A stretch of 64,000 bases of DNA. It comes from Solirubrobacterales bacterium. Its GTDB lineage: Bacteria; Actinomycetota; Thermoleophilia; Solirubrobacterales; JACPNS01. The notes below the pieces were generated by a model, which saw only the letters and a list, made by a program, of their open reading frames with translations, had not been told where the DNA came from and ran no database searches. Within the stretch, counting starts at the first letter, position 1; the number at the start of each line of letters is the position of its first letter. Where the stretch lies: NCBI GenBank assembly GCA_016185345.1, contig JACPNS010000016.1, positions 118,975-182,974 on the forward strand, in the 5' to 3' direction. The position numbers were made by a program, and so were the translations under genes. Positions 11,062 through 64,000 of the stretch are shown piece after piece.

Positions 11062-11134
11062 GCGCCCGTAGCTCAGTGGATAGAGCGCTGCCCTCCGAAG
11101 GCAGAAGTCGCAGGTTCGAATCCCGCCGGGCGCA
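11062..11134 (+). tRNA. tRNA-Arg (anticodon CCG)
   Basis: A full cloverleaf can be drawn: acceptor GCGCCCG / CGGGCGC with discriminator A, D-arm GCTC...GAGC, anticodon stem CTGCC / GGCAG around loop CTCCGAA (anticodon CCG, reading CGG), variable region AAGTC, and T-loop TTCGAAT. The T-stem GCAGG / CCCGC has one A-C mismatch in the middle. CCA is not encoded (ACCT follows). It lies 10 nt after the HD-GYP stop and is followed by an intrinsic terminator. Confidence 0.96.
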
Positions 11135-22475: not shown

Positions 22476-22494
22476 CACAAGGTGAGTCTTCGTC

Positions 22495-22613
22495 CACATC
22501 TCCAGCCGACGAGTCGGCTCTGGAATTGGCACCTTTTGCAGCTAAGTCAATAAAGACTGATGCAATGGTTGCCGGAGTGTCATAGGGCCAGTCCCTCAAC
22601 TCCTCTGGATGCG
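22495..22613 (-). ncRNA. SAM-I (S-box) riboswitch aptamer
   Basis: On the minus strand the conserved S-box core is present: CCAGAGGAGTTGAGGGACTG, then GGCCCTATGACACTCCGGCA followed by ACC, then AAGGTGCCAATTCCAGAG, a GCCGAC/GTCGGC stem, and GGAGATG. P1 forms between CGCATC (22613-22608) and GATGTG (22500-22495). The kink-turn and J-region bases of SAM-I are recognisable, unlike SAM-IV. It is followed by an intrinsic terminator and the threonine-synthase-family gene, so that operon should be switched off when S-adenosylmethionine is abundant. Confidence 0.93.
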
Positions 22614-22674
22614 TACAGCTATGTAGATCGATTGTAGCTTGCGCGGGGCGGGAAAGCGTCCTACGTTGGATTCA

Positions 22675-49281: not shown

Positions 49282-50250
49282 ATGATCGATCCGCTCGAAC
49301 GCTGGCGCGAATACGGAGAGAAGCCTGATTTTGCGGGACTTCTCACCTACGGGGGCGTTCCGTACACGCAGGACCCGTCCGAACTGGTCGGATTTGACGT
49401 CGCGATCGTCGGCGCGCCGACCGACGATCTTGTGAGCGATCGGCCTGGGACGCGATTTGCGCCACGAGCGATTCGCGCCGCGAGCTGCCCTCCCGGGCCA
49501 CACATGGAGGCGAAGGTAGACGCCTTCGACGTTCTGAAGGTCGTTGACTACGGCGATGCCGCCGTGCTTCCGGCCGACTGGGAGCGCACGCACGCTGCGA
49601 TCACCAAGACCGTCTCCGAGGTTCTGAGTGCCGGAGCCATCCCGATCGTCCTCGGCGGCGACCACTCGATCGTCGAGCCGGACATCCGTTCCTGCGCGGC
49701 AAAGCACGGCCCCGTCGGACTGATCCACTTTGACACTCACACCGACACCGGCAAGGATGTCTTCGGCGTCGAGGTCAGCCACGGGACGCCGATGTATCGC
49801 CTCGTCGAAGAGGGCGCGATCGACGCCAAGCGCTACGTGCAGATCGGCTTGCGAGGCTATTGGCCCGGAGACGAGGAATTCTATTGGCAGGCCGAAAAAG
49901 GAATCACAGCAATCCCGATGCACGAGATTCAGCGCGACGGCATCGAAGCAGCAGTTGCTCGCGCCATTGAAGTTGTTGGCGATGGACCAGTCTTCGTGAG
50001 CGTCGATATCGACGTACTCGACCCGGCGTTTGCACCCGGCACCGGCACGCCCGGGCCCGGCGGCATGACTTCGAACGACCTGCTTCAGGCTTGCCGCGCG
50101 GTTGCCTCGAGCGTCGAACTGGTCGGGGCGGATCTTGTGGAGATCATCCCGACGCTGGTCGGCTCAGCAGACATCACGGCCCTGGTCGGCGACCGCGTGG
50201 TGCGCGAGCTCTTGACAGGCGTAGCTATTTGTCGCTCAGCTTCTGCTTGA
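49282..50250 (+). CDS. Ureohydrolase family protein (agmatinase-like)
   Basis: A 322-residue manganese ureohydrolase. Metal motifs: [15 protein letters not shown] (usually DAHxD), and [24 protein letters not shown]. All the metal-binding Asp and His appear. Such enzymes hydrolyse agmatine, guanidinobutyrate or similar guanidino compounds to urea. Which one is not clear. ATG 49282 fits the family start ([12 protein letters not shown]). Its end overlaps the convergent GH3 gene by 26 nt. Confidence 0.9.
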
Positions 50251-51328
50251 GCGCGACGATGCGTTCCACGCCCGGTTCTAGCTGCGCACGCGTGACGCGG
50301 CCTGACTTGACGTCGCGCAGCAGGCGACTGCGCGCCGACATTGCACGGCCGTAGGCCTGGCCCCAGAGCAGCACATCCACGCCCGCCTGCAGCGCCGTGC
50401 GCGAAGTGTTGGCGCCGGGACCGAATTGCGGCGTGTCGAGCGCATCAGTGATCGTGAGCCCCCTGAAGCCGGTCTCGGCGAGCATTGTGTAGGCGCCCCT
50501 CTCGAGTGAGGCCGGTCGATCGAATCCGAGTTTGGAATAGCGCGAGCTCGACATCATTACGAAGGTGGGTGTGGCAGGGCACTGCCGATAGGGCTCGTTG
50601 TCTGCATCGATAAGTGCACGTGAGGCATCGATGTCGACGTCGTTGAAGTCGGTGTCCGCACCGGCGCGGCCGAGGCCCGGGAAGTGCTTGAACGTCGCGG
50701 CCACCCCGCCCTTCTCGTTGCCCTCAGCAAAGGCGCACGTGGCGTTGGCCGTGACTTGCGCGCTACTTGAATAGGCGCGGTTGCCAAGGAACGAGTTTCT
50801 GACTTTTGGCACATCAACCACCGGCGCGAGGTTTACGTTGAAGCCGTATTTCTTCAGCGCGCGGCCCGTCGCGAGGCCTTGATTCATGCCGGTGCGGGCT
50901 GGGTCGGAATTGCGCCCCATCGATGCCGGCGTGCGGGTCGGGGGGATCGAAGGAAGTCGCTGGACGATCCCGCCCTCCTGATCAGTCATAACGAACGGCG
51001 GCGGCATTCCCCCTGCCTCTGCCCACGCCCGAAGCTTGTTGATTGCGCGACGCGCAACGGCCGGCGTCGGCATATTGTTCGTGAACAACACCACTCCGCC
51101 GATGCGACCGGACCTGACCGCTCGCAGCACTGACCTCGGCGGCGTAGTGCCGACGTAACCAGTGGTGATGCGCTGTCCGATCAGCTGCGCTGTCGTGAGC
51201 TTTTTCGTTGCCGCGTCGGCGACCGCTGCTGGAGCCGTCTTCTCAGTTCCGCCGCTGATCAGCGCCACGGCAGCGATCACTGCACCAATGAGCAAAAGCG
51301 CGACCGTTGTCACGCCAAAGCGGGTCAT
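50225..51328 (-). CDS. Glycoside hydrolase family 3, probable beta-N-acetylhexosaminidase (NagZ-like)
   Basis: A 367-residue protein with an N-terminal membrane helix (VTTVALLLIGAVIAAVALI), so it is likely an exported, membrane-tethered enzyme rather than the cytosolic NagZ. FVMTDQEGGIVQRLPSIPP, KHFPGLGRAGADTDFN and the nucleophile segment LTITDALDTPQFG are characteristic. Substrate would be N-acetylglucosamine residues of peptidoglycan fragments. The neighbouring RpiR regulator fits a sugar-recycling role. Confidence 0.9.
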   Translation of the reverse strand: MTRFGVTTVALLLIGAVIAAVALISGGTEKTAPAAVADAATKKLTTAQLIGQRITTGYVGTTPPRSVLRAVRSGRIGGVVLFTNNMPTPAVARRAINKLRAWAEAGGMPPPFVMTDQEGGIVQRLPSIPPTRTPASMGRNSDPARTGMNQGLATGRALKKYGFNVNLAPVVDVPKVRNSFLGNRAYSSSAQVTANATCAFAEGNEKGGVAATFKHFPGLGRAGADTDFNDVDIDASRALIDADNEPYRQCPATPTFVMMSSSRYSKLGFDRPASLERGAYTMLAETGFRGLTITDALDTPQFGPGANTSRTALQAGVDVLLWGQAYGRAMSARSRLLRDVKSGRVTRAQLEPGVERIVALKQKLSDK

Positions 51329-51349
51329 CGCTTCAAACTACAGGAGTTC

Positions 51350-52303
51350 CTACTTGCCGCGGTAGGCACGAATGCGCCCACCGTAAACATCACTGTTGCT
51401 CGCGTAGAGCTCGTTCACGAGTCCCTGCACCACGGTCAGCAGCCCGGTGTGCGAACGAACGAAGGACGGACTGGTGGACGAGTAGTAGATGTGATGCGTT
51501 GAAAGCTTTGCGATCTCGCTCATCGAGGCGTCGGTGATGCTGATTGAACGGGCGCCGCGTGTGTTGGCGAGGCGCATCGCGCGGGTGACGATCGTGTGCG
51601 GACGCCCTGCGCAGAAAGCGATGACAAGCGAGTCCTCTTCGATGCGAGCGACGCGGTTGATCGAGTCCTGGGACGGGCTGGCGATCAGCTCGCAACGGTG
51701 CTCGAGCAGCATCAGCATGTGGCGCATGTAGGAAGCGAAGAAGGCCATCTGGTCAGTTCCGACCACGAGAATGTTGCGCGAGGTGGTGATCGCCGCGACT
51801 GCGGCGTCAAAGCTCGCGCGGTCCATGCGGCGCGCAGTCTCCTCGATGTTGATCTGATCGGCGGCCACGACCGACTCGGCCGGAGTCGGGTTCAGGCCGA
51901 AGAGCGATCCGTTCGTGCCCGTCTCCTGTTCGCGGCGGGTTGCGCGGTATTCCTCACGTGCCGCGGTCTGCAGTTCGGGGAATCCCTCAAAGCCAAGTGC
52001 CTGGCTGAAGCGAACGACGGTGGATGAAGAGGTCTGGACCTGCGCAGCGAGCTGCTCGGCGGTCTGAAATGCAGACTCCTCGAGGTGGTCGATGATGTAG
52101 AGAGCGACATCACGTTGGGCGCGCGAACAGCCCTCAAGCTTGTCTCGGATCAGCGCGCTCAGAGTCAGCGGCTCGGCTTCGGCGGTGGCTTTGCCGGCCG
52201 GCGTGGAGGTCTTGCCCGCCTTGATCGGCGAGTCAGCCTTCGCTGCAGTTTTGTTGGTGACAGTTTTGGTGGCCGGCTTTTCGGCGAGGGCGGCTTTGCT
52301 CAT
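51350..52303 (-). CDS. RpiR/MurR-family transcriptional regulator with an Ala/Lys-rich head
   Basis: A 317-residue regulator. Residues 1-45 are an unusual Ala/Lys/Thr-rich tail (MSKAALAEKPATKTV..., histone-like in composition) that may bind DNA non-specifically. An HTH_6 domain follows (GCSRAQRDVALYIIDHL, TAEQLAAQVQTSSSTVVRFSQALGFEGF) and then an SIS domain (ILVVGTDQMAFFASYM, LVIAFCAGRPHTIVTRAM) that senses a phosphosugar. It lies 21 nt upstream of the GH3 gene on the same strand, suggesting control of amino-sugar use. Confidence 0.9.
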   Translation of the reverse strand: MSKAALAEKPATKTVTNKTAAKADSPIKAGKTSTPAGKATAEAEPLTLSALIRDKLEGCSRAQRDVALYIIDHLEESAFQTAEQLAAQVQTSSSTVVRFSQALGFEGFPELQTAAREEYRATRREQETGTNGSLFGLNPTPAESVVAADQINIEETARRMDRASFDAAVAAITTSRNILVVGTDQMAFFASYMRHMLMLLEHRCELIASPSQDSINRVARIEEDSLVIAFCAGRPHTIVTRAMRLANTRGARSISITDASMSEIAKLSTHHIYYSSTSPSFVRSHTGLLTVVQGLVNELYASNSDVYGGRIRAYRGK

Positions 52304-52611: not shown

Positions 52612-55600
52612 ATGAGTTCACTTTTGTCTCGCTTTGGGTCGATCCATCGATCAGTCGGAAAATTCGTCGTGCTCGCGTTCTCGCTGCTCGTCTTCGCCAT
52701 CGCGCTGACCGGCTCGGCCTCGGCCGACCTTGACACCTTCACGACCGGCGACGGTCACGAGGGCGCTGTGACGGTTTCGACCAACTCCGTGCTCAACTAC
52801 TCAGCACCGCTCAACGCGGCGGCCTCGGCCGGCGCGACCAGCCTCACGACAGGCACCGGTCAGACCGGCGCAGTCGGTACGGCCACCACGACCGGCTCCG
52901 CCGCGCAGACTCAGTTCGAGGCAAATCGTCTCGCGCTCGTCATCCAGTCCTCCAACTACTCGGGGCCCGGCGCCACAAGCGGATCCCAGGCCGACATCGA
53001 TCTTTCGACGAGCGCAACGGGACAGTGGGAGCTCGCGAAGATCAGCAGCGTCACCGGTTCTATCGCGGCGGGAATGACAGTCAATTTCGTCAATCCGCTC
53101 GTCAACTCATACGCGTCGACCGGAGCGCAGATCGTGGCGATTCCGGAGTTCACGACGGTTCAGGTGAACAGCAGCCGCGCTTGGAGTGCGAACCCGTGGA
53201 ACGGCACCAACGGTGGCATCACAGGATTCCTCGCCAACGGAACCGTCAACCTCACCAACACTGCAAGCTCGATCAACGCTGACGGCGACGGCTTCCGCGG
53301 CGGACTGACCTACAACGGCAGCGCAACTGCCTGCACCCAGCTAGATGGCACGGTCGGCGGCGGCAAGGGCGAGGGCATCGTCTCTGGCGTTTACCCCGGA
53401 AGCGCCACCAGCTACGCCTCGCGCGGCAACGTCGCAAACGGTGGCGGTGGCGGTGTGTGCGAAAACTCGGGCGGCGGCGGCGGCGGAAACGGCGGCCAGG
53501 GCGGAATTGGCGGTGCGTCCTACGACGGGAGCCGCAACGTCGGCGGACTCGGCGGAACCAAGCTCAACTACTCAGCTTTTGACCGCGCGATCTTCGGTGG
53601 CGGTGGCGGCGCCGGAGACGAGAACAACGACAACGGTGGAGAAGGCGGCGACGGTGGCGGCCTCGTCTTTGTTCGTGCCAACGCTCTCACCGGCTCTGGC
53701 GTGCTTTCTGCCAACGGGGCGGCTGGCGCAAACTCAGCTGCGATCGGGTCCAGCGATGGCGCCGGTGGTGGCGGCGCGGGCGGTGTCGTCTACGCGCGCT
53801 TCAACACGACCGCAGCGTGCAACCTTGCTTCAGTGCGGGGCGGCGCGGGCGGAAACGAGCAGTCCACAGGCGGCGTCCACGGTCCTGGTGGCGGTGGCGC
53901 AGGCGGACGCCTCGTGCTCCAGAGCTCCGGCGGTACCTGCCCGACCAACGTCGGCAACGGCACCGGCGGCATCACGACTGTGGGGAACAACAACCGTGGA
54001 TCTGGTCCGACCAGTAGCACCGACGCGACATCTTCTGGCGCGACCGAGGCCGTCAGCGGCGGCGGCGGACTGAGTGCGCCTACGGCCACGGTCAGCACGC
54101 CGGCCAACGGCGCATACGTGAACAGCGCAACGCCGACGATCAGCGGAACGTCGAGCATGACGCTCGGCACGATCCGCGTGACGATTGATGGCGCCTACGT
54201 CGGCTCAGTCACAACGGCAGCAAACGGTGACTGGAGCTACACACCCGGTTCGGCCCTGACCGCCGGATCCCACACCTACACAGTTCGCCCGGTCTACTAC
54301 GGCATCGCCGGAGCAGCAACCGGATCGCGCACGTTGATCGTTGACACGGTGGCACCAACCGTTGCGATCAGCGGTCTCACCTCGCCCACCGCATCCGGCG
54401 CAAGCCAGACCGCGACGATCACGCGCAGCGACAACGTTGCCGTCACCTCGCAGACCTGCCAGCTCGACGCAGGCGCCGCAACTGCATGCACCACCTCTTA
54501 CGCGACTGGCGCACTGTCGGCCGGCTCGCACACGATCACGGTCATCGCGAACGACGCTGCTGGAAGCTCCACGACGCAGACGGCAACGATCATTGTTGAC
54601 CAGACCGCGCCGACCGTCGCGATCAGCGGTCAGTCGACCCCGACTGCTTCGACCGCCAGTCAGTCCCTCACGATCACGGCAGCCGACAACGTCGCGCTCG
54701 CCACGGTGACCTGCCGCGTGGACAGCGGCGCCAACACCTCCTGCATCGGCGGCACGTACGCCACCGGAGCTCTCACGGCCGGGTCGCACACGATCACGGT
54801 GATCGCGACCGACACCGTCGGAAACGCAACCACACAGACGGCGACGATCGTTGTTGACCAGACCGCTCCGACGGTCACCGTCAGCGGCCTGACCTCGCCG
54901 ACGAACTCGACGGCCAGCCAGACGGCGACGATCACGGCAGCCGACAACGTTGCGCTCGCCACGGTGACCTGCCGCGTTGACAGCGGCGCCACGACTTCAT
55001 GCATCGGCGGCACCTACGCAACCGGCACGCTCGCCGCCGGATCCCACACGATCACGGTGATCGCGACCGACACAAGCGGCAACCAGACGACTCAGACCGC
55101 CACGGTCGTGGTGGACACCACCGCCCCAACGCTCGCGATCAGCGGCCAGACCACCCCGACTGCTTCGAGCACAAGCCAGAACCTCACGATCACCTCCGCA
55201 GACAACGTCGCGCTTGCCACGGTGACCTGCCGCGTTGACAGCGGCGCCACAACTTCATGCATCGGCGGCAGCTACGCAACCGGAACCCTGGCCGCTGGAT
55301 CACACACGATCACCGCGATCGCGACCGACACCGCCGGGAACTCGACCACGCAGACCGCGACGATCGTGATCGACCAGACCCCGCCGAGCGTTGCCATCAG
55401 CGGACTGACCTCGCCGACCGCGTCCGGAGCGAGCCAGACCGCAACGATCACGCGAAGCGACAACATCGCGATCGCAACCCAGACCTGCCGGCTCGACAGC
55501 GGCGCAACGACTGCTTGCACCACGTCGTACGCGACAGGCGCCCTGAGCAACGGATCCCACACGATCACGGTCATCGCGACCGACACCAGCGGCAACGCCA

Positions 55601-58600
55601 CCACGCAGACCGCAACGATCGTTGTGGACCAGACCGCGCCGACCGTCTCGATCGGCGGACAGACCTCCCCCACCAGCTCGACCGCCAGCCAGTCGCTCAC
55701 GATCACTGCGGCAGACAACCTCGCACTGACCACCGTGACCTGCCGCGTTGACAGCGGCGCGACGACATCTTGCATCGGCGGCACCTACGCAACGGGCACG
55801 CTTACAGCCGGCTCGCACACCGTGACCGTCATAGCGACCGACAGCGTCGGCAACACCACAACACAGACCGCGACGATCGTTGTTGACCAGACCTCACCGA
55901 CCGTCACGATCAGTGGTCAGACGACGCCTACGTCATCGGGCGCCAGCCAGACACTGACGATCGCGACGAGCGACAACGTTGCGCTCAGCACGGTCACCTG
56001 CCGCGTGGACAGCGGCGCAACCACCTCTTGCATCGGTGGCACGTACGCCACCGGCGCGCTTGCGGCCGGCTCACACACGATCACCGTGATCGCCACCGAC
56101 ACCGTCGGAAACGCGACCACCCAGACAGCGACGATCGTGGTCGATCAGACAGCGCCCGCGGTCACGATCAGCGGAGTCACATCGCCCACCCGCTTCACGA
56201 CCAGCCAGACGGCGACGATTGCTGCGAGCGACAACGTCGCGATCGCCTCGCAGACCTGCCGCCTGAACAGCGGAACGCCAGCTGCCTGCACCACGTCCTT
56301 CGCGACCGGCGTCCTGACGGTCGGCACAAACACGATCACCGTCGTCGCAGCCGACACCAGCGGAAACGTCACGACCCAGACCGCGACAATCTTCGTTGAT
56401 CAGACCGCACCGAGCGTCGCGATCAGCGGCCTCACCTCGCCGACCAATTCGACCGCGAGCCAGACCGCAACGATCGCCGCAAGTGACAACGTCGCGATCG
56501 CAAGCCAGACCTGTCGCCTGGACTCCGGCGCAAACACGGCCTGCACCACTTCCTACGCAACTGGCGTGATGACCGCCGGCACCCACACGATCACCGTCGT
56601 CGCAACTGACACGGCCGGAAACGTCACGACCCAGACGGCCACGATCGTTGTTGACACCACGGTCCCGACCCTGTCGATCTCTGGCCTGACCACTCCGACC
56701 AACTCGACTGCAAGCCAGACCGCAACGATCACCGCGGGTGACAACCTCGCACTCAGCACCGTCACCTGCCGCGTTGACAGCGGCGCGACTACTTCTTGCA
56801 TCGGCGGCACGTACGCCACCGGCACGCTGAGCGCCGGTACCCACACGCTGACCGCGATCGCAACCGACACCGCGGGCAACCAGACGACCCAGACGGCCAC
56901 GATCGTGGTCGATCAGACCAACCCGACCCTTTCGATCAGCGGCCTCACCTCCCCGACGAGCTCGAGCTCGAGCCAGACGGCGACGATCACCGCCGCCGAC
57001 AACGTCGCCCTCAGCACCGTCACCTGCCGCGTTGACAGCGGCGCAACGACTTCCTGCATCGGCGGCACGTACGCCACCGGAACTCTGACTGCCGGCTCGC
57101 ACACGATCACCGTGATCGCGACCGACACCAGCGGCAACCAGACGACGCAGACGGCGACCATCGTTGTGGACCAGACCGCGCCGAACGTTGCAATCAGCGG
57201 ACTGACGACGCCGACGAACTCAACCGCGAGCCAGACGGCAACGATCACCGCCAGCGACAACGTCGCCCTCGCCAGCCAGACCTGCCGCCTCGACTCGGGC
57301 GCCAACACCGCCTGCACGACCTCATTTGCCACCGGCGCGCTGACCGCCGGTACCCACACGATCACCGTGATCGCCACCGACACCGTCGGAAACAGCACGA
57401 CCCAGACGGCGACGATCGTCGTTGACCAGACCCTCCCGACCGTCGCGATCAGCGGCCTGACTTCTCCGACGAACTCCGGTGCCAGCCAGACGGCGACGAT
57501 CACGGCGACCGACAACGTCGCGATCGCCTCGCAGACCTGCAGGCTCGACAGCGGCGCGAACACCGCCTGCACGACCTCATTTGCCACCGGCGCGCTGAGC
57601 GCAGGTACGCACACGATCACTGTCATCGCGACCGACACCGCCGGCAATCAGCGCACGCAAACGGCGACGATCGTCGTTGACCAGACGGCGCCGAGCCTCG
57701 CGATCAGCGGCCTCACCAGCCCGACCAACTCCACTTCGAGCCAGACGGCGACGATCACGGCGAGCGACAACATCGCTCTCAGCACCGTCACCTGCCGCGT
57801 CGACAGCGGCGCCACAACTTCATGCATCGGCGGCACCTACGCAACCGGAACTCTGACCGCCGGATCGCACACGATCACTGTGATCGCGACCGACACCAGC
57901 GGCAACCAGACCACTCAGACCGCCACGGTCGTGGTGGACACGAGCTCACCAGTCGTGACGATCACCCCGCCGACCTCGCCGACGGCATCGAGCGCCAGCC
58001 AGAACATCGCCTTCACCGCGACCGACAACGGAACGATCACTCTCGTCGAGTGCAGGATCGACTCCGGCTCGTTCGCGCCGTGCACCTCCCCGTTCGCGAC
58101 CGGCACGCTGACCGCCGGAAGCCACACCGTCTATGTGCGCGCAACCGACAACGCGGCAAACCAGACCACGCAGTCCGTGACGATCGTCGTTGACCAGACC
58201 GGCCCGGCCGTGACGATCAGCGGACTGATCAGCCCGCGCAACTCGACCGCCAGCCAGACCGCGAGTATCGGAGCGACCGACAACGTCGCCGTCGCCACAG
58301 TCACATGCTCGATCGACGGCGGTGCCTCAACTTCATGCATCGGCGGCAGCTACGCCACCGGCACTCTCGCGGCCGGCTCGCATACGGTTTCAGTAACAGC
58401 AACCGACACGAGCGGCAACGCCACGACGCAGACCGCGACGATCGTGATCGACCTGACCGCGCCCTCGGTCGCGATCACTGGTCTGACGAGCCCGACCAGG
58501 TTCACGACGAGCCAGACGGCCGCGATCACGACGACAGACAACGTCGCGATCGCCTCGCAGACCTGCAGGCTCAACAGCGGAACGCCCGCGGCCTGCACCA

Positions 58601-61600
58601 CCTCCTTCGCGACCGGCGTCCTGACCGTCGGCACGAACACCGTCACCGTCGTTGCGACCGACACGGCCGGCAACCAGACCACGCAGAGTGCGACGATCAT
58701 CGTGGATCAGACGAACCCGACGGTTTCGATCAGCGGTCAGACCACGCCGACAGCCGCGAGCGCCAGCCAGAACCTCACGATCACTGCGGCGGACAACGTC
58801 GCGCTGAGCACGGTCACCTGCCGCGTTGACAGCGGGGCAAACACCTCATGCATCGACGGCACCTACGCCACCGGCACCCTGACCGCCGGATCCCACACGA
58901 TCACCGTGATCGCGACCGACACAGCCGCAAACCAGACGACGCAGACAGCGACGATCGTTGTCGACCAGACGTCGCCGAGCGTCGCGATCAGCGGTCTGAC
59001 CAGCCCGACCAGCTCTTCAGCAAGCCAGACGGCGACGATCGCCGCAAGCGACAACATTGCGATCGCCAGCCAGACCTGCAGGCTCGACAGCGGCAGCGCC
59101 GTCGCCTGCACCACCAGCTTTGCCACCGGCGCCCTCGCAGCTGGCTCACACACGATCACGGTTGTTGCCACCGACACGAGCGGGAACGTCACAACGCAGA
59201 CAGCGACGATCATCGTTGATCAGACCGCGCCGTCGGTCGCCATCACGGGGATCACCTCGCCGACCGCGTCGGGCGCAAGCCAGACCGCGACGATCACGGC
59301 ATCCGACAACGTCGCGATCGCGAGCCAGACCTGCCGCCTCGACAGCGGCAGCGCAACGGCCTGCACCACTTCCTTCGCCACAGGCGCGCTGACGGCCGGC
59401 TCGCACACGATCACCGTCGTCGCCACCGACACGAGCGGAAACGTCACCACGCAGACGGCGACGATCATCGTTGACCAGTCGGCACCGAGCGTCGCGATCA
59501 GCGGACTCTCATCGCCGACTAACTCGACCGCGAGCCAGACCGCGACAATCGCGACGAGCGACAACGTCGCCCTCGCAAGCCAGACCTGCAGGCTCGATTC
59601 CGGCGCAATCACCGCATGCACCACCTCTTACGCGACCGGCACGCTGACCGCCGGCTCGCACACGATCACGGTCATCGCGACCGACACCTCCGGCAACAGC
59701 ACGACTCAGACGGCGACCATCGTCGTCGATCAGGCTGCGCCGACAGTCACGATCAGCGGCCTCACCTCACCGACCAGGTTCACGACAAGCCAGACGGCAA
59801 CGATCGCCGCCAGCGACAACGTTGCGATCGCGAGCCAGACCTGCAGGCTGGACAGCGGTCCGATCACCGGGTGCACGACTTCGTACTCAACAGGCGTGCT
59901 CACCGCCGGTAGCCACACCATCACCGTCGCCGCAACCGACACCGCCGGGAACGTCGCCACTCAGACGGCGACGATCGTCGTCGATCTGACTGCGCCGGCG
60001 CTTTCGATCAGCGGCGTGACATCTCCGACAGCTTCGGGCGCGAGCCAGACGGCGACGATCACGGCGGGCGACAACCTGGCGCTGAGCACCGTCACATGCC
60101 GCGTTGACAGCGGCGCAACCACTTCATGCATCGGCGGCAGCTACGCCACCGGCGCGCTTTCTGCCGGCAGCCACACGATCACGGCGATCGCGACCGACAC
60201 GGCCGGCAACCAGACGACTCAGACGGCAACAAGCATCGTGGATCAGACGGCACCGAGCGTGGCGATCAGCGGACTCACCAGCCCGACCAATTCTTCTACC
60301 AGCCAGAACGCCACGATCGCGGCGAGCGACAACATCGCAATCGCGACTCAGACCTGCGGGCTCGACAGCGGAGCCAACACGGCCTGCACCACCTCCTTCG
60401 CCACCGGCGCGCTGACGGCCGGCAGCCACACGATCACGGTCATCGCGACCGACACCAGCGGAAACGTCACGACGCAGACGGCAACGATCGTCGTGGACCA
60501 GACGGCCCCGAGCATTTCGATCAGCGGCCTGACTTCTCCGACGCGCTTCACGACGAGCCAGACGGCGACGATCACGCGTAGCGACAACGTCGCGATCGCA
60601 TCCCAGACCTGCCGTCTGAACAGCGGCACGCCATTGGCATGCACGACCTCATTTGCGACCGGAACCTTGACCGTCGGCACGAACACGATCACCGTCGTCG
60701 CAACAGACACCAGCGGCAACGTCACCACCCAGACCGCGACGATCGTCGTTGACCAGACCTCCCCGAGCGTCGCCATCACAGGTCTGACCTCGCCGACCTC
60801 TTCGGGCGCGAGCCAGACGGCGACGATCACCGCGAGCGACAACATTGCAATCGCGACTCAGACCTGCCGCCTCGACTCGGGCGCCAACACCGCATGCACG
60901 ACTTCATACGCAACTGGCGCGCTGACGGCCGGCTCGCACACGATCACCGTGATCGCGACCGACACCAGTGGAAACGTCACGACGCAGACCGCGACGATCG
61001 TCGTTGACCAGACTGCCCCAAGCGTTTCAATCAGCGGCCTGACCACGCCGACCAACTCGACCGCCAGCCAGACGGCGACGATCACCAGGAGCGACAACGT
61101 CGCGATCGCCAGCCAGACATGCCGCCTCGACAGCGGCGCGACGACTCCATGCACCACCTCTTACGCGACCGGCGTGCTTTCGCCGGGCTCGCACACGATC
61201 ACGGTCGTCGCGATCGACACGAGCGGAAACTCAACGACTCAGACGGCGACGATCGTTGTCGATCAGACGGCCCCGACCGTCGCAATCAGTGGCCTGACCG
61301 CGCCGACCAACTCGACCGCCAGCCAGACGGCGACGATCACGCGTAGCGACAACATCGCAATCGCAACTCAGACCTGCAGGCTCGACAGTGGAGCAGCAAC
61401 CCCGTGCACCACCTCCTACGCCACAGGCACTCTCGCCGAGGGCTCACACACGATCACGGTCGTCGTGACTGACACCGCCGGCAACACAACGACGCAGACC
61501 GCGACGATCGTCGTCGACACGACGCTCCCGCCGGCCCCAACCGTCACGCGCGTCGCGCCGACATCAAGCCCGACCAGCTCAACCAGCGCTCAGGTGACCT

Positions 61601-64000
61601 TCTCTGCCAACGAGCCCGGCGGAACGCTCCGCTGCTCGATCGACGGCGGCGCATTCTCGACTTGCGCGAGCAGCCCGCTGAACTTCACTTCTCTGGCCGA
61701 TGGACCGCACAGCGTCGCTGTCGAACAGGTTGACGCCGCCGGAAACACAGGCTCCGTCGCCTCTGTCGCCTGGACCGTTGACACGACCCCGCCGCCGGCC
61801 CCGACCGTCACGCGCACTTCACCCAACAGCAGCCCGACCAGCTCGACCGATGCCGAGATCGCCTTCTCTGCAAACGAGCCCGGCGGCACGCTTGAGTGCT
61901 CGGTTGACGGCGGCTCCTTCACCACTTGCGCGAGCAGTCCCGTCATCCTCAGTGGCCTCGCAGATGGCAGCCACACCTTCGCCGTGCGCCAGATCGATGC
62001 CGCTGGCAACCCCGGCACCGCATCGACCGTCAGTTGGACCGTTGACACGGCCGCACCGAGCGCGCCGAGCGTCAGCTCCAACCGCACCGGCACGGTCAGC
62101 GAATCAACCGCAACGATCACCTACAGCGCCAGTGAATCTGGCGGCACGCTCGAGTGCTCGCTCGATGGCGGCGTCTTCGCAACCTGCACAAGCAGCCCGA
62201 TCAGCCTCACCGGCCTGACCGACGGACCGCACACCTACTCAGTGCGTCAGCGCGACGACGCAGGCAACGTCGACTCAGCCGCCACAGTGGCCTGGGTCGT
62301 GGACCTCACCGCCCCGAACGCCCCGACGATCACTTCGCCGACTGGCTCGCCGCACTACAGCGCGACGGGCACCCCGATCTTCAGCGGCAGCGGCGAGGCC
62401 AACAGCACGATCAACCTCTACGACGGCGCAACGCTGATCGGCACGACCACCGCTGACGCAAGCGGCGACTGGACGATCACCAGCGACCTGCTCAGCGACG
62501 GTTCGCACGCGATCACCGCCACTTCGACCGACTCTGCCGCAAACAGCAGCAGCGCCTCAGCAGTCACAAGCGTCGTCGTTGACACGGCCACGCCGACGGT
62601 TGCGATCACCGCACCGGCAACCGGCACGTTCATCAATACACCGGCCGCGACGGTCAGCTTCAGCGTCACCGACGCAAACACAGGTTCAACCAACTGCCAG
62701 ATCGACGGCGGCGCGTTCGCCCCGTGCACGAGCGGCTTCTCGACACCCGCGCTCAGCAACGGCTCGCACACGATCACGGTCCAGCACACGGACCTCGCGG
62801 GCAACACTGGAAGCTCAAGCACAACCTTCACCGTTGACAACGCGACCCCGACCGTCGCGATCTCCAGCCCGGCCGCATTCGAGCACGTCAGCACCGCGAT
62901 CAACACGATCAACTTCACCGTGACCGACGACAACCCGTCGGCGAGCTCGTCCTGCAGCGTGGACGGCAACGCGCCCGTCACATGCTCAGACCCGTTCGAG
63001 ACTGCGGCATTGAGCGACGGAAGCCACACCGTCACAGTCAGCCACACCGATTCCGCTGGCAACACCGGAAGCGCGGCAGTGACGTTCACGGTTGACACCC
63101 AGGCCCCCGGCGCGCCGACGATCACGGACGCTCCCGCGGACCCGATCGCCAGCAACGAAGCTGACTTCACCTTCACCGGCGCCGAATCAGGCGGCGCATT
63201 CGAGTGCTCACTCGACGGAGCAACGTTCGCTCCGTGCAGCAGCCCGGCGAACTACCCCGGACTCACCGACGACGACCACGAGTTCCGCGTGCGTCAGGTC
63301 GACGAGGCCGGCAACGCGGGCGCGATCGCAACGCACAGCTGGACTGTCGACACAACGGCGCCAGACGCCCCGACCCTCAATGGTCCCAGCGCCAACACGA
63401 ACAACCCTGAATCAACCGTCAGCTTCGCGGGAAGCCCCGACACCGTGGAGTTGCGCTGCAGCTTTGACGGCGGCGCCTCTGCAACCTGCCCGACTTCTCC
63501 GCTCTCACTGGGCGAACTGCCGGACGGCAACTACAGCTTCACGGTTGAGGCCTTCGACGCCGCAGGAAACTCGTCAACGAGCACGATCGGTTGGACCGTT
63601 GACACCGTCGCCCCCGGCGCACCTTCGATCACCGCCGGTCCCGTCGGATCGGTGCCCTCGCCCGACGCAACATTCGAGTTCACCGGCGCCGAGAGCGGCG
63701 GAATCTACCGCTGCAGCATCGACTCGCTGCCCGCGGTCAACTGCGCCTCACCTCACGACGCAACCGGCCTCGCTGACGGCACCTACACCTTCCACGTCCG
63801 TCAGGTCGACGCCGCAGGCAACGCCGGGCCGATGGCCAGCCGCACGTGGACGATCGACACGACGCCGCCAGCCGCTCCGACCGTGACCGGACCGAGCAGC
63901 CCGTCGGGCCAGACTTCTGCCTTGATCGACTTCAGCGCGAGCGAGCCCGGCCTGACCTTCCAGTGCGAGGTCGACAGCGGCGGATACTCCCCGTGCACCG
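52612..64000 (+). CDS. Giant secreted Ig-like repeat protein, C-terminus beyond window
   Basis: The frame is open from ATG 52612 to the window end (3,796 codons). I confirmed phase at 54601, 58201, 60241, 62041, 63601 and 63961. A signal peptide (MSSLLSRFGSIHRSVGK, then VVLAFSLLVFAIALTGSASA) opens it. Residues about 30-480 form a beta-rich, Gly-rich region (GGGGGVCENSGGGG and similar). One Ig-like domain follows (about 489-576), then 28 units of 85/86 residues, then at least ten diverged Ig-like domains. Nearly every repeat carries a Cys pair in a CxxDxGxxxxC-like loop, probably a disulfide. The likely role is a surface adhesin or matrix protein, inferred from architecture only. No anchoring signal is visible because the end is missing. 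Confidence 0.93.
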   Translation, partial: MSSLLSRFGSIHRSVGKFVVLAFSLLVFAIALTGSASADLDTFTTGDGHEGAVTVSTNSVLNYSAPLNAAASAGATSLTTGTGQTGAVGTATTTGSAAQTQFEANRLALVIQSSNYSGPGATSGSQADIDLSTSATGQWELAKISSVTGSIAAGMTVNFVNPLVNSYASTGAQIVAIPEFTTVQVNSSRAWSANPWNGTNGGITGFLANGTVNLTNTASSINADGDGFRGGLTYNGSATACTQLDGTVGGGKGEGIVSGVYPGSATSYASRGNVANGGGGGVCENSGGGGGGNGGQGGIGGASYDGSRNVGGLGGTKLNYSAFDRAIFGGGGGAGDENNDNGGEGGDGGGLVFVRANALTGSGVLSANGAAGANSAAIGSSDGAGGGGAGGVVYARFNTTAACNLASVRGGAGGNEQSTGGVHGPGGGGAGGRLVLQSSGGTCPTNVGNGTGGITTVGNNNRGSGPTSSTDATSSGATEAVSGGGGLSAPTATVSTPANGAYVNSATPTISGTSSMTLGTIRVTIDGAYVGSVTTAANGDWSYTPGSALTAGSHTYTVRPVYYGIAGAATGSRTLIVDTVAPTVAISGLTSPTASGASQTATITRSDNVAVTSQTCQLDAGAATACTTSYATGALSAGSHTITVIANDAAGSSTTQTATIIVDQTAPTVAISGQSTPTASTASQSLTITAADNVALATVTCRVDSGANTSCIGGTYATGALTAGSHTITVIATDTVGNATTQTATIVVDQTAPTVTVSGLTSPTNSTASQTATITAADNVALATVTCRVDSGATTSCIGGTYATGTLAAGSHTITVIATDTSGNQTTQTATVVVDTTAPTLAISGQTTPTASSTSQNLTITSADNVALATVTCRVDSGATTSCIGGSYATGTLAAGSHTITAIATDTAGNSTTQTATIVIDQTPPSVAISGLTSPTASGASQTATITRSDNIAIATQTCRLDSGATTACTTSYATGALSNGSHTITVIATDTSGNATTQTATIVVDQTAPTVSIGGQTSPTSSTASQSLTITAADNLALTTVTCRVDSGATTSCIGGTYATGTLTAGSHTVTVIATDSVGNTTTQTATIVVDQTSPTVTISGQTTPTSSGASQTLTIATSDNVALSTVTCRVDSGATTSCIGGTYATGALAAGSHTITVIATDTVGNATTQTATIVVDQTAPAVTISGVTSPTRFTTSQTATIAASDNVAIASQTCRLNSGTPAACTTSFATGVLTVGTNTITVVAADTSGNVTTQTATIFVDQTAPSVAISGLTSPTNSTASQTATIAASDNVAIASQTCRLDSGANTACTTSYATGVMTAGTHTITVVATDTAGNVTTQTATIVVDTTVPTLSISGLTTPTNSTASQTATITAGDNLALSTVTCRVDSGATTSCIGGTYATGTLSAGTHTLTAIATDTAGNQTTQTATIVVDQTNPTLSISGLTSPTSSSSSQTATITAADNVALSTVTCRVDSGATTSCIGGTYATGTLTAGSHTITVIATDTSGNQTTQTATIVVDQTAPNVAISGLTTPTNSTASQTATITASDNVALASQTCRLDSGANTACTTSFATGALTAGTHTITVIATDTVGNSTTQTATIVVDQTLPTVAISGLTSPTNSGASQTATITATDNVAIASQTCRLDSGANTACTTSFATGALSAGTHTITVIATDTAGNQRTQTATIVVDQTAPSLAISGLTSPTNSTSSQTATITASDNIALSTVTCRVDSGATTSCIGGTYATGTLTAGSHTITVIATDTSGNQTTQTATVVVDTSSPVVTITPPTSPTASSASQNIAFTATDNGTITLVECRIDSGSFAPCTSPFATGTLTAGSHTVYVRATDNAANQTTQSVTIVVDQTGPAVTISGLISPRNSTASQTASIGATDNVAVATVTCSIDGGASTSCIGGSYATGTLAAGSHTVSVTATDTSGNATTQTATIVIDLTAPSVAITGLTSPTRFTTSQTAAITTTDNVAIASQTCRLNSGTPAACTTSFATGVLTVGTNTVTVVATDTAGNQTTQSATIIVDQTNPTVSISGQTTPTAASASQNLTITAADNVALSTVTCRVDSGANTSCIDGTYATGTLTAGSHTITVIATDTAANQTTQTATIVVDQTSPSVAISGLTSPTSSSASQTATIAASDNIAIASQTCRLDSGSAVACTTSFATGALAAGSHTITVVATDTSGNVTTQTATIIVDQTAPSVAITGITSPTASGASQTATITASDNVAIASQTCRLDSGSATACTTSFATGALTAGSHTITVVATDTSGNVTTQTATIIVDQSAPSVAISGLSSPTNSTASQTATIATSDNVALASQTCRLDSGAITACTTSYATGTLTAGSHTITVIATDTSGNSTTQTATIVVDQAAPTVTISGLTSPTRFTTSQTATIAASDNVAIASQTCRLDSGPITGCTTSYSTGVLTAGSHTITVAATDTAGNVATQTATIVVDLTAPALSISGVTSPTASGASQTATITAGDNLALSTVTCRVDSGATTSCIGGSYATGALSAGSHTITAIATDTAGNQTTQTATSIVDQTAPSVAISGLTSPTNSSTSQNATIAASDNIAIATQTCGLDSGANTACTTSFATGALTAGSHTITVIATDTSGNVTTQTATIVVDQTAPSISISGLTSPTRFTTSQTATITRSDNVAIASQTCRLNSGTPLACTTSFATGTLTVGTNTITVVATDTSGNVTTQTATIVVDQTSPSVAITGLTSPTSSGASQTATITASDNIAIATQTCRLDSGANTACTTSYATGALTAGSHTITVIATDTSGNVTTQTATIVVDQTAPSVSISGLTTPTNSTASQTATITRSDNVAIASQTCRLDSGATTPCTTSYATGVLSPGSHTITVVAIDTSGNSTTQTATIVVDQTAPTVAISGLTAPTNSTASQTATITRSDNIAIATQTCRLDSGAATPCTTSYATGTLAEGSHTITVVVTDTAGNTTTQTATIVVDTTLPPAPTVTRVAPTSSPTSSTSAQVTFSANEPGGTLRCSIDGGAFSTCASSPLNFTSLADGPHSVAVEQVDAAGNTGSVASVAWTVDTTPPPAPTVTRTSPNSSPTSSTDAEIAFSANEPGGTLECSVDGGSFTTCASSPVILSGLADGSHTFAVRQIDAAGNPGTASTVSWTVDTAAPSAPSVSSNRTGTVSESTATITYSASESGGTLECSLDGGVFATCTSSPISLTGLTDGPHTYSVRQRDDAGNVDSAATVAWVVDLTAPNAPTITSPTGSPHYSATGTPIFSGSGEANSTINLYDGATLIGTTTADASGDWTITSDLLSDGSHAITATSTDSAANSSSASAVTSVVVDTATPTVAITAPATGTFINTPAATVSFSVTDANTGSTNCQIDGGAFAPCTSGFSTPALSNGSHTITVQHTDLAGNTGSSSTTFTVDNATPTVAISSPAAFEHVSTAINTINFTVTDDNPSASSSCSVDGNAPVTCSDPFETAALSDGSHTVTVSHTDSAGNTGSAAVTFTVDTQAPGAPTITDAPADPIASNEADFTFTGAESGGAFECSLDGATFAPCSSPANYPGLTDDDHEFRVRQVDEAGNAGAIATHSWTVDTTAPDAPTLNGPSANTNNPESTVSFAGSPDTVELRCSFDGGASATCPTSPLSLGELPDGNYSFTVEAFDAAGNSSTSTIGWTVDTVAPGAPSITAGPVGSVPSPDATFEFTGAESGGIYRCSIDSLPAVNCASPHDATGLADGTYTFHVRQVDAAGNAGPMASRTWTIDTTPPAAPTVTGPSSPSGQTSALIDFSASEPGLTFQCEVDSGGYSPCT
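53440..53945 (+). repeat. Glycine-rich region of the giant protein
   Basis: Coding for long runs of Gly with Asn, Ala and Ser (GGGGGG, GGAGGN, GGEGGDGGGLVF, GGGGAGGRLVL). This resembles the Gly-rich beta-roll or beta-helix segments of other large bacterial surface proteins. Two conserved Cys are near 53460 and 53817. The GC-rich triplet bias is a local compositional feature of the gene, not a mobile element. Confidence 0.7.
54340..61512 (+). repeat. 28 tandem Ig-like units of 255 or 258 bp
   Basis: Unit boundaries taken at V-D-Q/T-x-A-P run 54340, 54595, 54853, 55111, 55369, 55624, 55882, 56140, 56395, 56650, 56908, 57166, 57421, 57676, 57934, 58189, 58447, 58702, 58960, 59215, 59470, 59725, 59980, 60238, 60493, 60748, 61003, 61258. 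Eleven units are 86 codons (core CRVDSGATTSCIGGTYATG) and seventeen are 85 (core CRLDSGANTACTTSYATG). The sum, 11x258 + 17x255 = 7173, equals the span exactly, so there are no other indels. Confidence 0.92.
61513..64000 (+). repeat. Diverged Ig-like domain array after the main repeats
   Basis: About ten domains of 82-92 residues, each opening VDTxxP or IDTTPP and most carrying a CSxDGGxFxxC pair (for example LRCSIDGGAFSTC, LECSVDGGSFTTC, YRCSIDSLPAVNC). One of them (about 62308-62580) lacks the Cys pair and has GEANSTINLYDGATLIG instead. Unlike the upstream units these vary in length and sequence. The last is cut at 64000. Confidence 0.85.

Follow-up and report, generated by a model that had tools for sequence, protein, structure and literature searches.

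A predicted Ca2+- and disulfide-stapled Ig stalk in a giant fibrillar-adhesin-like protein from a Thermoleophilaceae-related actinobacterium

What sort of protein is built around 28 consecutive repeats of nearly identical length, and by what history did these repeats come to differ so much in sequence and so little in size? The question is raised by a giant gene at the end of a 64,000-nucleotide stretch of DNA (the whole of which is called the window below) from the 2.43 Mb, 22-contig genome of a Thermoleophilaceae-related actinobacterium. We favor, with a probability of about 70%, a secreted fibrillar-adhesin-like protein whose function we infer: an Ig stalk stapled by Ca2+ and disulfides, with the N-domain as its tip, a basic tail as its anchor and a burst as the origin of its array. 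According to this model, a rod of ~47 Ig-like domains would hold an AgmC_N-type N-domain off the cell. A Ca2+ site of SiiE type I would stiffen the rod wherever two domains meet, and a hairpin disulfide would do so within every array unit; a Pro-rich linker together with a strongly basic C-terminal domain would probably keep the protein in the cell wall without a sortase. The 28-unit block itself would stem from a tandem burst in which a single founder Ig unit was amplified, roughly when the species split from its sister; since then, the units would have diverged under purifying selection and without homogenisation.

Anatomy and genomic setting of the giant gene

The open frame (52612..63999+, forward strand) meets no stop codon up to the end of the window; the full gene runs beyond position 64000 to C16:186189 and encodes 4867 aa, with a mature mass of ~474 kDa, ~47 Ig-like domains and 42 C-x9-C pairs along its length (Table 1). 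A giant surface-type protein with an Ig-like stalk had been proposed in the original prediction, and this anatomy supports it: the product is very large and secreted, carries a long Ig-like stalk and is presumably located at the surface. Fibrillar adhesins combine a stalk of known repeat domains, an adhesive domain that is normally distal and a surface anchor (PMC8286594). Pfam Big_13 covers the stalk of the present protein in 30 stretches (E 2e-164), which supplies the known repeat domains, and the N-domain, the candidate for the distal domain, is matched by NCBIfam NF047640 alone, a Pfam search of it having given no match.

Table 1. Annotated features of the 64,000-nucleotide window (positions are those of the window)
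Feature	Position	Strand	Basis or remark
tRNA gene	11062-11134	+	RF00005
SAM riboswitch	22493-22615	-	RF00162, 81 bits
RpiR-family regulator with SIS domain and GH3 (NagZ-like) gene	50225-52303	-	upstream of the giant gene and divergent from it
Signal peptide (aa 1-38, ...SASA/DLDTF)	52612..52725	+	inspection of translation; orthologue with same start region
N-terminal domain of AgmC_N type, rich in Gly (HMM match aa 24-449); probably the tip	52681..53958	+	NCBIfam NF047640
First Ig-like domain, without Cys, common to orthologue	54106..54336	+	
28 Ig-like units in tandem, 17 of them with 85 and 11 with 86 codons; C-x9-C and three invariant Asp in every unit	54337..61509	+	TRF, translation split; AF2 of units 26-27
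Three units (88, 88, 86 aa) of the type amplified 31-fold in congener G001	61510..62295	+	tree
Start of conserved C-terminal Ig array	62296..64000	+	continues outside the window to C16:186189

The match of the N-domain to NF047640 scores 327.8 bits against a curated cut-off of 275 and extends over model positions 6-407 of 412, and two shuffles of the domain, keeping either the overall or the local composition, gave 0 hits with this model. The likeness to AgmC-type proteins thus consists of an N-terminal domain that passes the curated cut-off with a nearly full-length match, which now places a domain of this type in an actinobacterial genus; in the present material, however, it was confined to this one genus when 399 genomes from the class and 396 from the phylum, the latter representing 237 genera, were sampled. 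A PDB profile search with the N-domain returned nothing, and no relatives turned up in viral contigs and plasmids. This putative tip, of which the AF2 model built from two sequences reached a pLDDT of only 34, may bind a ligand. The name AgmC refers to adventurous gliding motility, and it could be imagined that the protein acts in gliding or as a social-surface factor, as the score above the curated cut-off would have it. Nevertheless, the host is an actinobacterium and the family name reflects annotation and not mechanism (a literature search for AgmC found no paper on it), so we hold this role to be extremely improbable.

At its other end, the protein passes from the Ig array into a Pro-rich linker and then into a basic tail of 230 aa (net charge +31, pI 10.4); the stalk is strongly acidic (pI ~4.1). 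The tail matched no Pfam family over the cut-off, anchor families included, and among 61 genomes it was present in only three, all belonging to this genus. No LPXTG motif was seen in the C-terminus and no sortase gene (PF04203) was found in the genome; anchoring of the protein by linker and tail is what the model predicts.

A paralogue of 2474 aa with an N-domain of the same kind, also over the NF047640 cut-off, lies directly downstream of the giant gene. The same gene pair is present in a congener, the MAG JAEMSX010000005.1 ('Thermoleophilaceae bacterium isolate SupBloom_Metag_045', hereafter G001), which was picked up via the N-domain and was the sole return of a single-sequence N-domain scan of genome contigs. 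The GH3 gene also precedes the giant-gene orthologue there. The original prediction had missed four elements: the Asp residues of the predicted Ca2+ site, the match of the N-domain to AgmC_N, the paralogue that follows the gene and the fact that the sister species has another central array.

Predicted fold, cysteine pair and candidate Ca2+ site

For structure prediction, AF2 was given two adjacent units (26-27) in an alignment that held a further 56 unit pairs, taken from the window and from locus L023. The resulting model has a mean pLDDT of 95.9 and is all-beta, with 12 strands of at least three residues over both units. The best PDB matches obtained with Foldseek were the SiiE domains BIg50-52 (2yn3; TM 0.72, E 2e-9), followed by matches that include GhpA fragments and SraP; SraP and SiiE were recovered with a sequence profile as well. 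On the evidence of this model, the stalk would be a SiiE-like Ig rod. Matches to the T9SS sortase PorU, PG_M23_Pgp6 and Ig_like_BLP2 were dismissed as lying below the cut-off and being repeat-driven; OmpL47 'beta-barrel' matches did exceed the cut-off, but we discarded a barrel, as the units take up an Ig fold in the model.

The two Cys are present without exception in the 28 array units and stand exactly 10 residues apart. In the model, C38 is on the strand formed by residues 33-40 and C48 comes directly after residues 46-47; if residue 40 pairs with 46, residue 38 pairs with 48, which would set the two Cys opposite each other in a beta-hairpin. Their proximity is deduced from this strand registry, and a hairpin disulfide inside each array unit is therefore probable. 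Across the genus, 241 Ig units were tallied, of which 183 have both Cys, 45 neither, nine only one (six of them in a single protein) and four a gap; because units within an array are not independent, this tally is support and not a count of events. The disulfide-stabilised fiber that had been suggested from the sequence alone thus gains in plausibility, both from the cross-strand registry in a model of pLDDT 96, where the two Cys appear close to each other within the Ig fold, and from the fact that the Cys are gained or lost as a pair. The same suggestion had called a conserved Cys pair unusual for such repeats: its conservation holds throughout the array, and its rarity holds only in part, given its presence in 183 of the 241 genus units.

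Three further positions, D3, D32 and D74, are invariant in all 28 units, and the matching positions of the G001 array read D, E and D in 31 of 31 units. In SiiE, each domain junction has a type I Ca2+ site, to which domain n-1 contributes one Asp and domain n contributes two (PMC5466336). HMMER aligned two of the three Asp positions to SiiE Asp residues, and the remaining one, Asp 32, may be the equivalent of the third. From the alignment with SiiE, type I-like Ca2+ binding is predicted at the junctions between units.

The giant Ca2+-binding adhesin SiiE of Salmonella enterica is accordingly the closest known system that we can name by structural match, and it shares the giant Ig-like rod, the fold of BIg50-52 and, with the above proviso for D32, the triad of type I Asp. 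In contrast to SiiE, every array unit here carries C-x9-C, the protein is actinobacterial with other N- and C-terminal regions, and a signal peptide stands in place of the T1SS export of which SiiE is a substrate. The ligand-binding region of SraP (4m00/4m03) and GhpA of Aureispira (9flw) have stalk modules that are alike in fold, in the case of SraP in sequence too, but their whole architectures differ from that of the present protein.

Two other loci of the source genome may be recorded here. In L036 (G000:C3:384000-397500), a further Ig array, the Cys of the pair are jointly substituted (GTLQGSLDGAAYATVT); its reading frame apparently falls into two ORFs, one of 2333 and one of 718 aa, owing to a frameshift or an assembly error. 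L038 (G000:C8:99000-107000) encodes a 976-aa protein whose Ig units have only the first Cys of the pair (ECKVDNGSFTTVT).

Divergence and history of the 28 units

TRF placed an array with a 255-bp period and 28.0 copies at 54358-61518, and splitting of the translation gave 28 consecutive units of 85 (type A) or 86 (type B) codons in the order ABBBABBAABBAABABABAAAABAAAAA. This bears out the earlier count of units and their lengths, as well as the observation that the array has a single indel, one residue long and immediately behind the second Cys (C-T-T-S versus C-I-G-G-T). Adjacent units are 72% identical in amino acids, and DNA identity between units averages 73% (range 58-85%). The unit count is unlikely to be an assembly artefact, because the longest exact repeat is only 41 bp.

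These figures bear on the view that the protein is of the periscope type, that is, that the array changes its unit number at the present time by recombination between near-identical repeats and so regulates the projection of the tip. Periscope proteins (Sgo_0707, SasG, Rib) do have a like layout, with a repetitive folded stalk leading from an N-terminal domain to a C-terminal wall region, and the 72% identity of adjacent units lies above the <50% usual in multidomain proteins (PMC8201768). Neighboring SHIRT domains, however, are 82-100% identical in protein (PMC8201768), whereas the present repeats, with a mean DNA identity of 73%, a maximum of 85% and no exact repeat beyond 41 bp, are not highly identical in DNA and are too diverged for an easy change of length. 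Recent duplication has left no trace in the array, no sortase gene was found, and between species the array differs in kind and not merely in number. We therefore consider a periscope-type protein quite unlikely.

Between units, the median dN is 0.21 and the median dS 0.79, with a minimum dS of 0.41; the dN/dS of ~0.28, which the original prediction had proposed to determine, supports purifying selection. Neighboring units are no more alike than distant ones. Third positions showed neither a correlation with distance nor a segmental signal, the left and right halves of the unit correlate at -0.03 in these positions, and the scatter of fourfold differences between units is not above binomial. 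Duplication of higher order, involving several units at once, was tested and found no support. Such a pattern points to units that arose from one founder in a burst and have diverged independently ever since, so that they would be old copies.

The original prediction had offered two alternative causes for the uniform length of the units. One was ongoing gene conversion, which would keep the units alike and equal in length; it can draw on the PHI test over all sites (P 0.002) and on the difference between A and B units, which is concentrated in codons 33-56 and hardly visible in the rest of the unit, as though the segment with the Cys hairpin had been swapped as a cassette at an early stage. 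On third positions, however, PHI gives P 0.18, and the half-to-half correlation near zero, the missing neighbor effect and a dS that never falls below 0.41 all speak against it; furthermore, the A/B block can be accounted for by one early change in the founder before the burst. Gene conversion in recent times is thus largely refuted, and as an ongoing process we give it very little credence. Fine-scale shuffling in the more distant past, which too would erase left-right agreement, may still have occurred.

The other cause was a strong length constraint. When the C-terminal Ig domains are compared between the two orthologues, there are 2 gap events in 1368 columns at a fourfold divergence of 1.13. 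With a summed star length of ~1150 codon-units for the array, ~1.5 indels are therefore expected at the same rate, and one or two are seen. The length strictness of the array equals the indel rate elsewhere in the protein and is ordinary for it.

The central array in congeners

The orthologue in G001 is 82% identical in the N-domain and 71% in the C-terminal array and tail, with two gap columns in each, and where the window gene has its 28 units, it carries 31 units, each 86 or 88 aa long. The G001 array contains an exact repeat of 101 bp, which makes the number of its units less certain than in the window. Related genes in two further congeners differ again: the G002 gene, whose N-domain is nearer to that of the downstream paralogue, continues with a distinct type of unit (85 aa), and in G003 a tail of the same type is preceded by units of 84 aa that are different once more. 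Both are incomplete at contig ends or frame-broken, and the clean orthologous comparison is that between the window genome (G000) and G001. The G002 homologue (L022, G002:C30) has its frame broken inside the repeats (frames of 896 and 1569 aa), by error or a real break, and runs off the contig.

What is new here is the apparent replacement of the entire central array in a sister species, with both ends conserved. Periscope-type adhesins are understood as having near-identical repeats that change in number; here we find old and about equally diverged copies, and sister species that use different repeats. We see an even chance that the stalk is renewed in this manner, the ends being kept and the middle rebuilt in each species by a burst of a different founder Ig unit. 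Fourfold divergence is 0.97 (0.83-1.16) between units and 1.13 (0.94-1.38) between orthologues, so that unit divergence is about equal to species divergence.

Obviously, both bursts might instead have preceded the species split, with each species losing one array later on. The overlap of the two divergence intervals agrees with this, and for this reason bursts near the split and reciprocal loss are not separable with certainty; moreover, the window species keeps three units of the other type, the third of which (86 aa) pairs in the tree with unit 31, the last one, of G001 (support 100/99). A search of G001, on the other hand, detected no unit closer than 46% to the 28-unit type, and the two retained 88-aa units fall outside the amplified group of G001 (weak support), which makes us regard reciprocal loss as rather unlikely.

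If stalk renewal by bursts of different founders is true, the exposed shaft would be diversified and its mechanics kept, as the similar lengths of the middle region (2735 aa in the window gene and 2874 aa in the G001 orthologue) and the same Asp/Cys pattern in the two complete genes would suggest; two genes are too few for a claim of length selection. Should the same hold in more genomes, it would become testable whether selection acts on the length and stiffness of the stalk and not on its sequence, and the two predicted staples, Ca2+ and the Cys of the hairpin, would outlast each array replacement.

A side observation concerns the downstream paralogue (L012:6288-13712, on G000:C16, outside the window). 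Its N-domain is 62% identical to that of G002 and 45% to its G001 counterpart, and outside the N-domain most blocks are 54-83% identical to G001; an exchange of the N-domain is possible.
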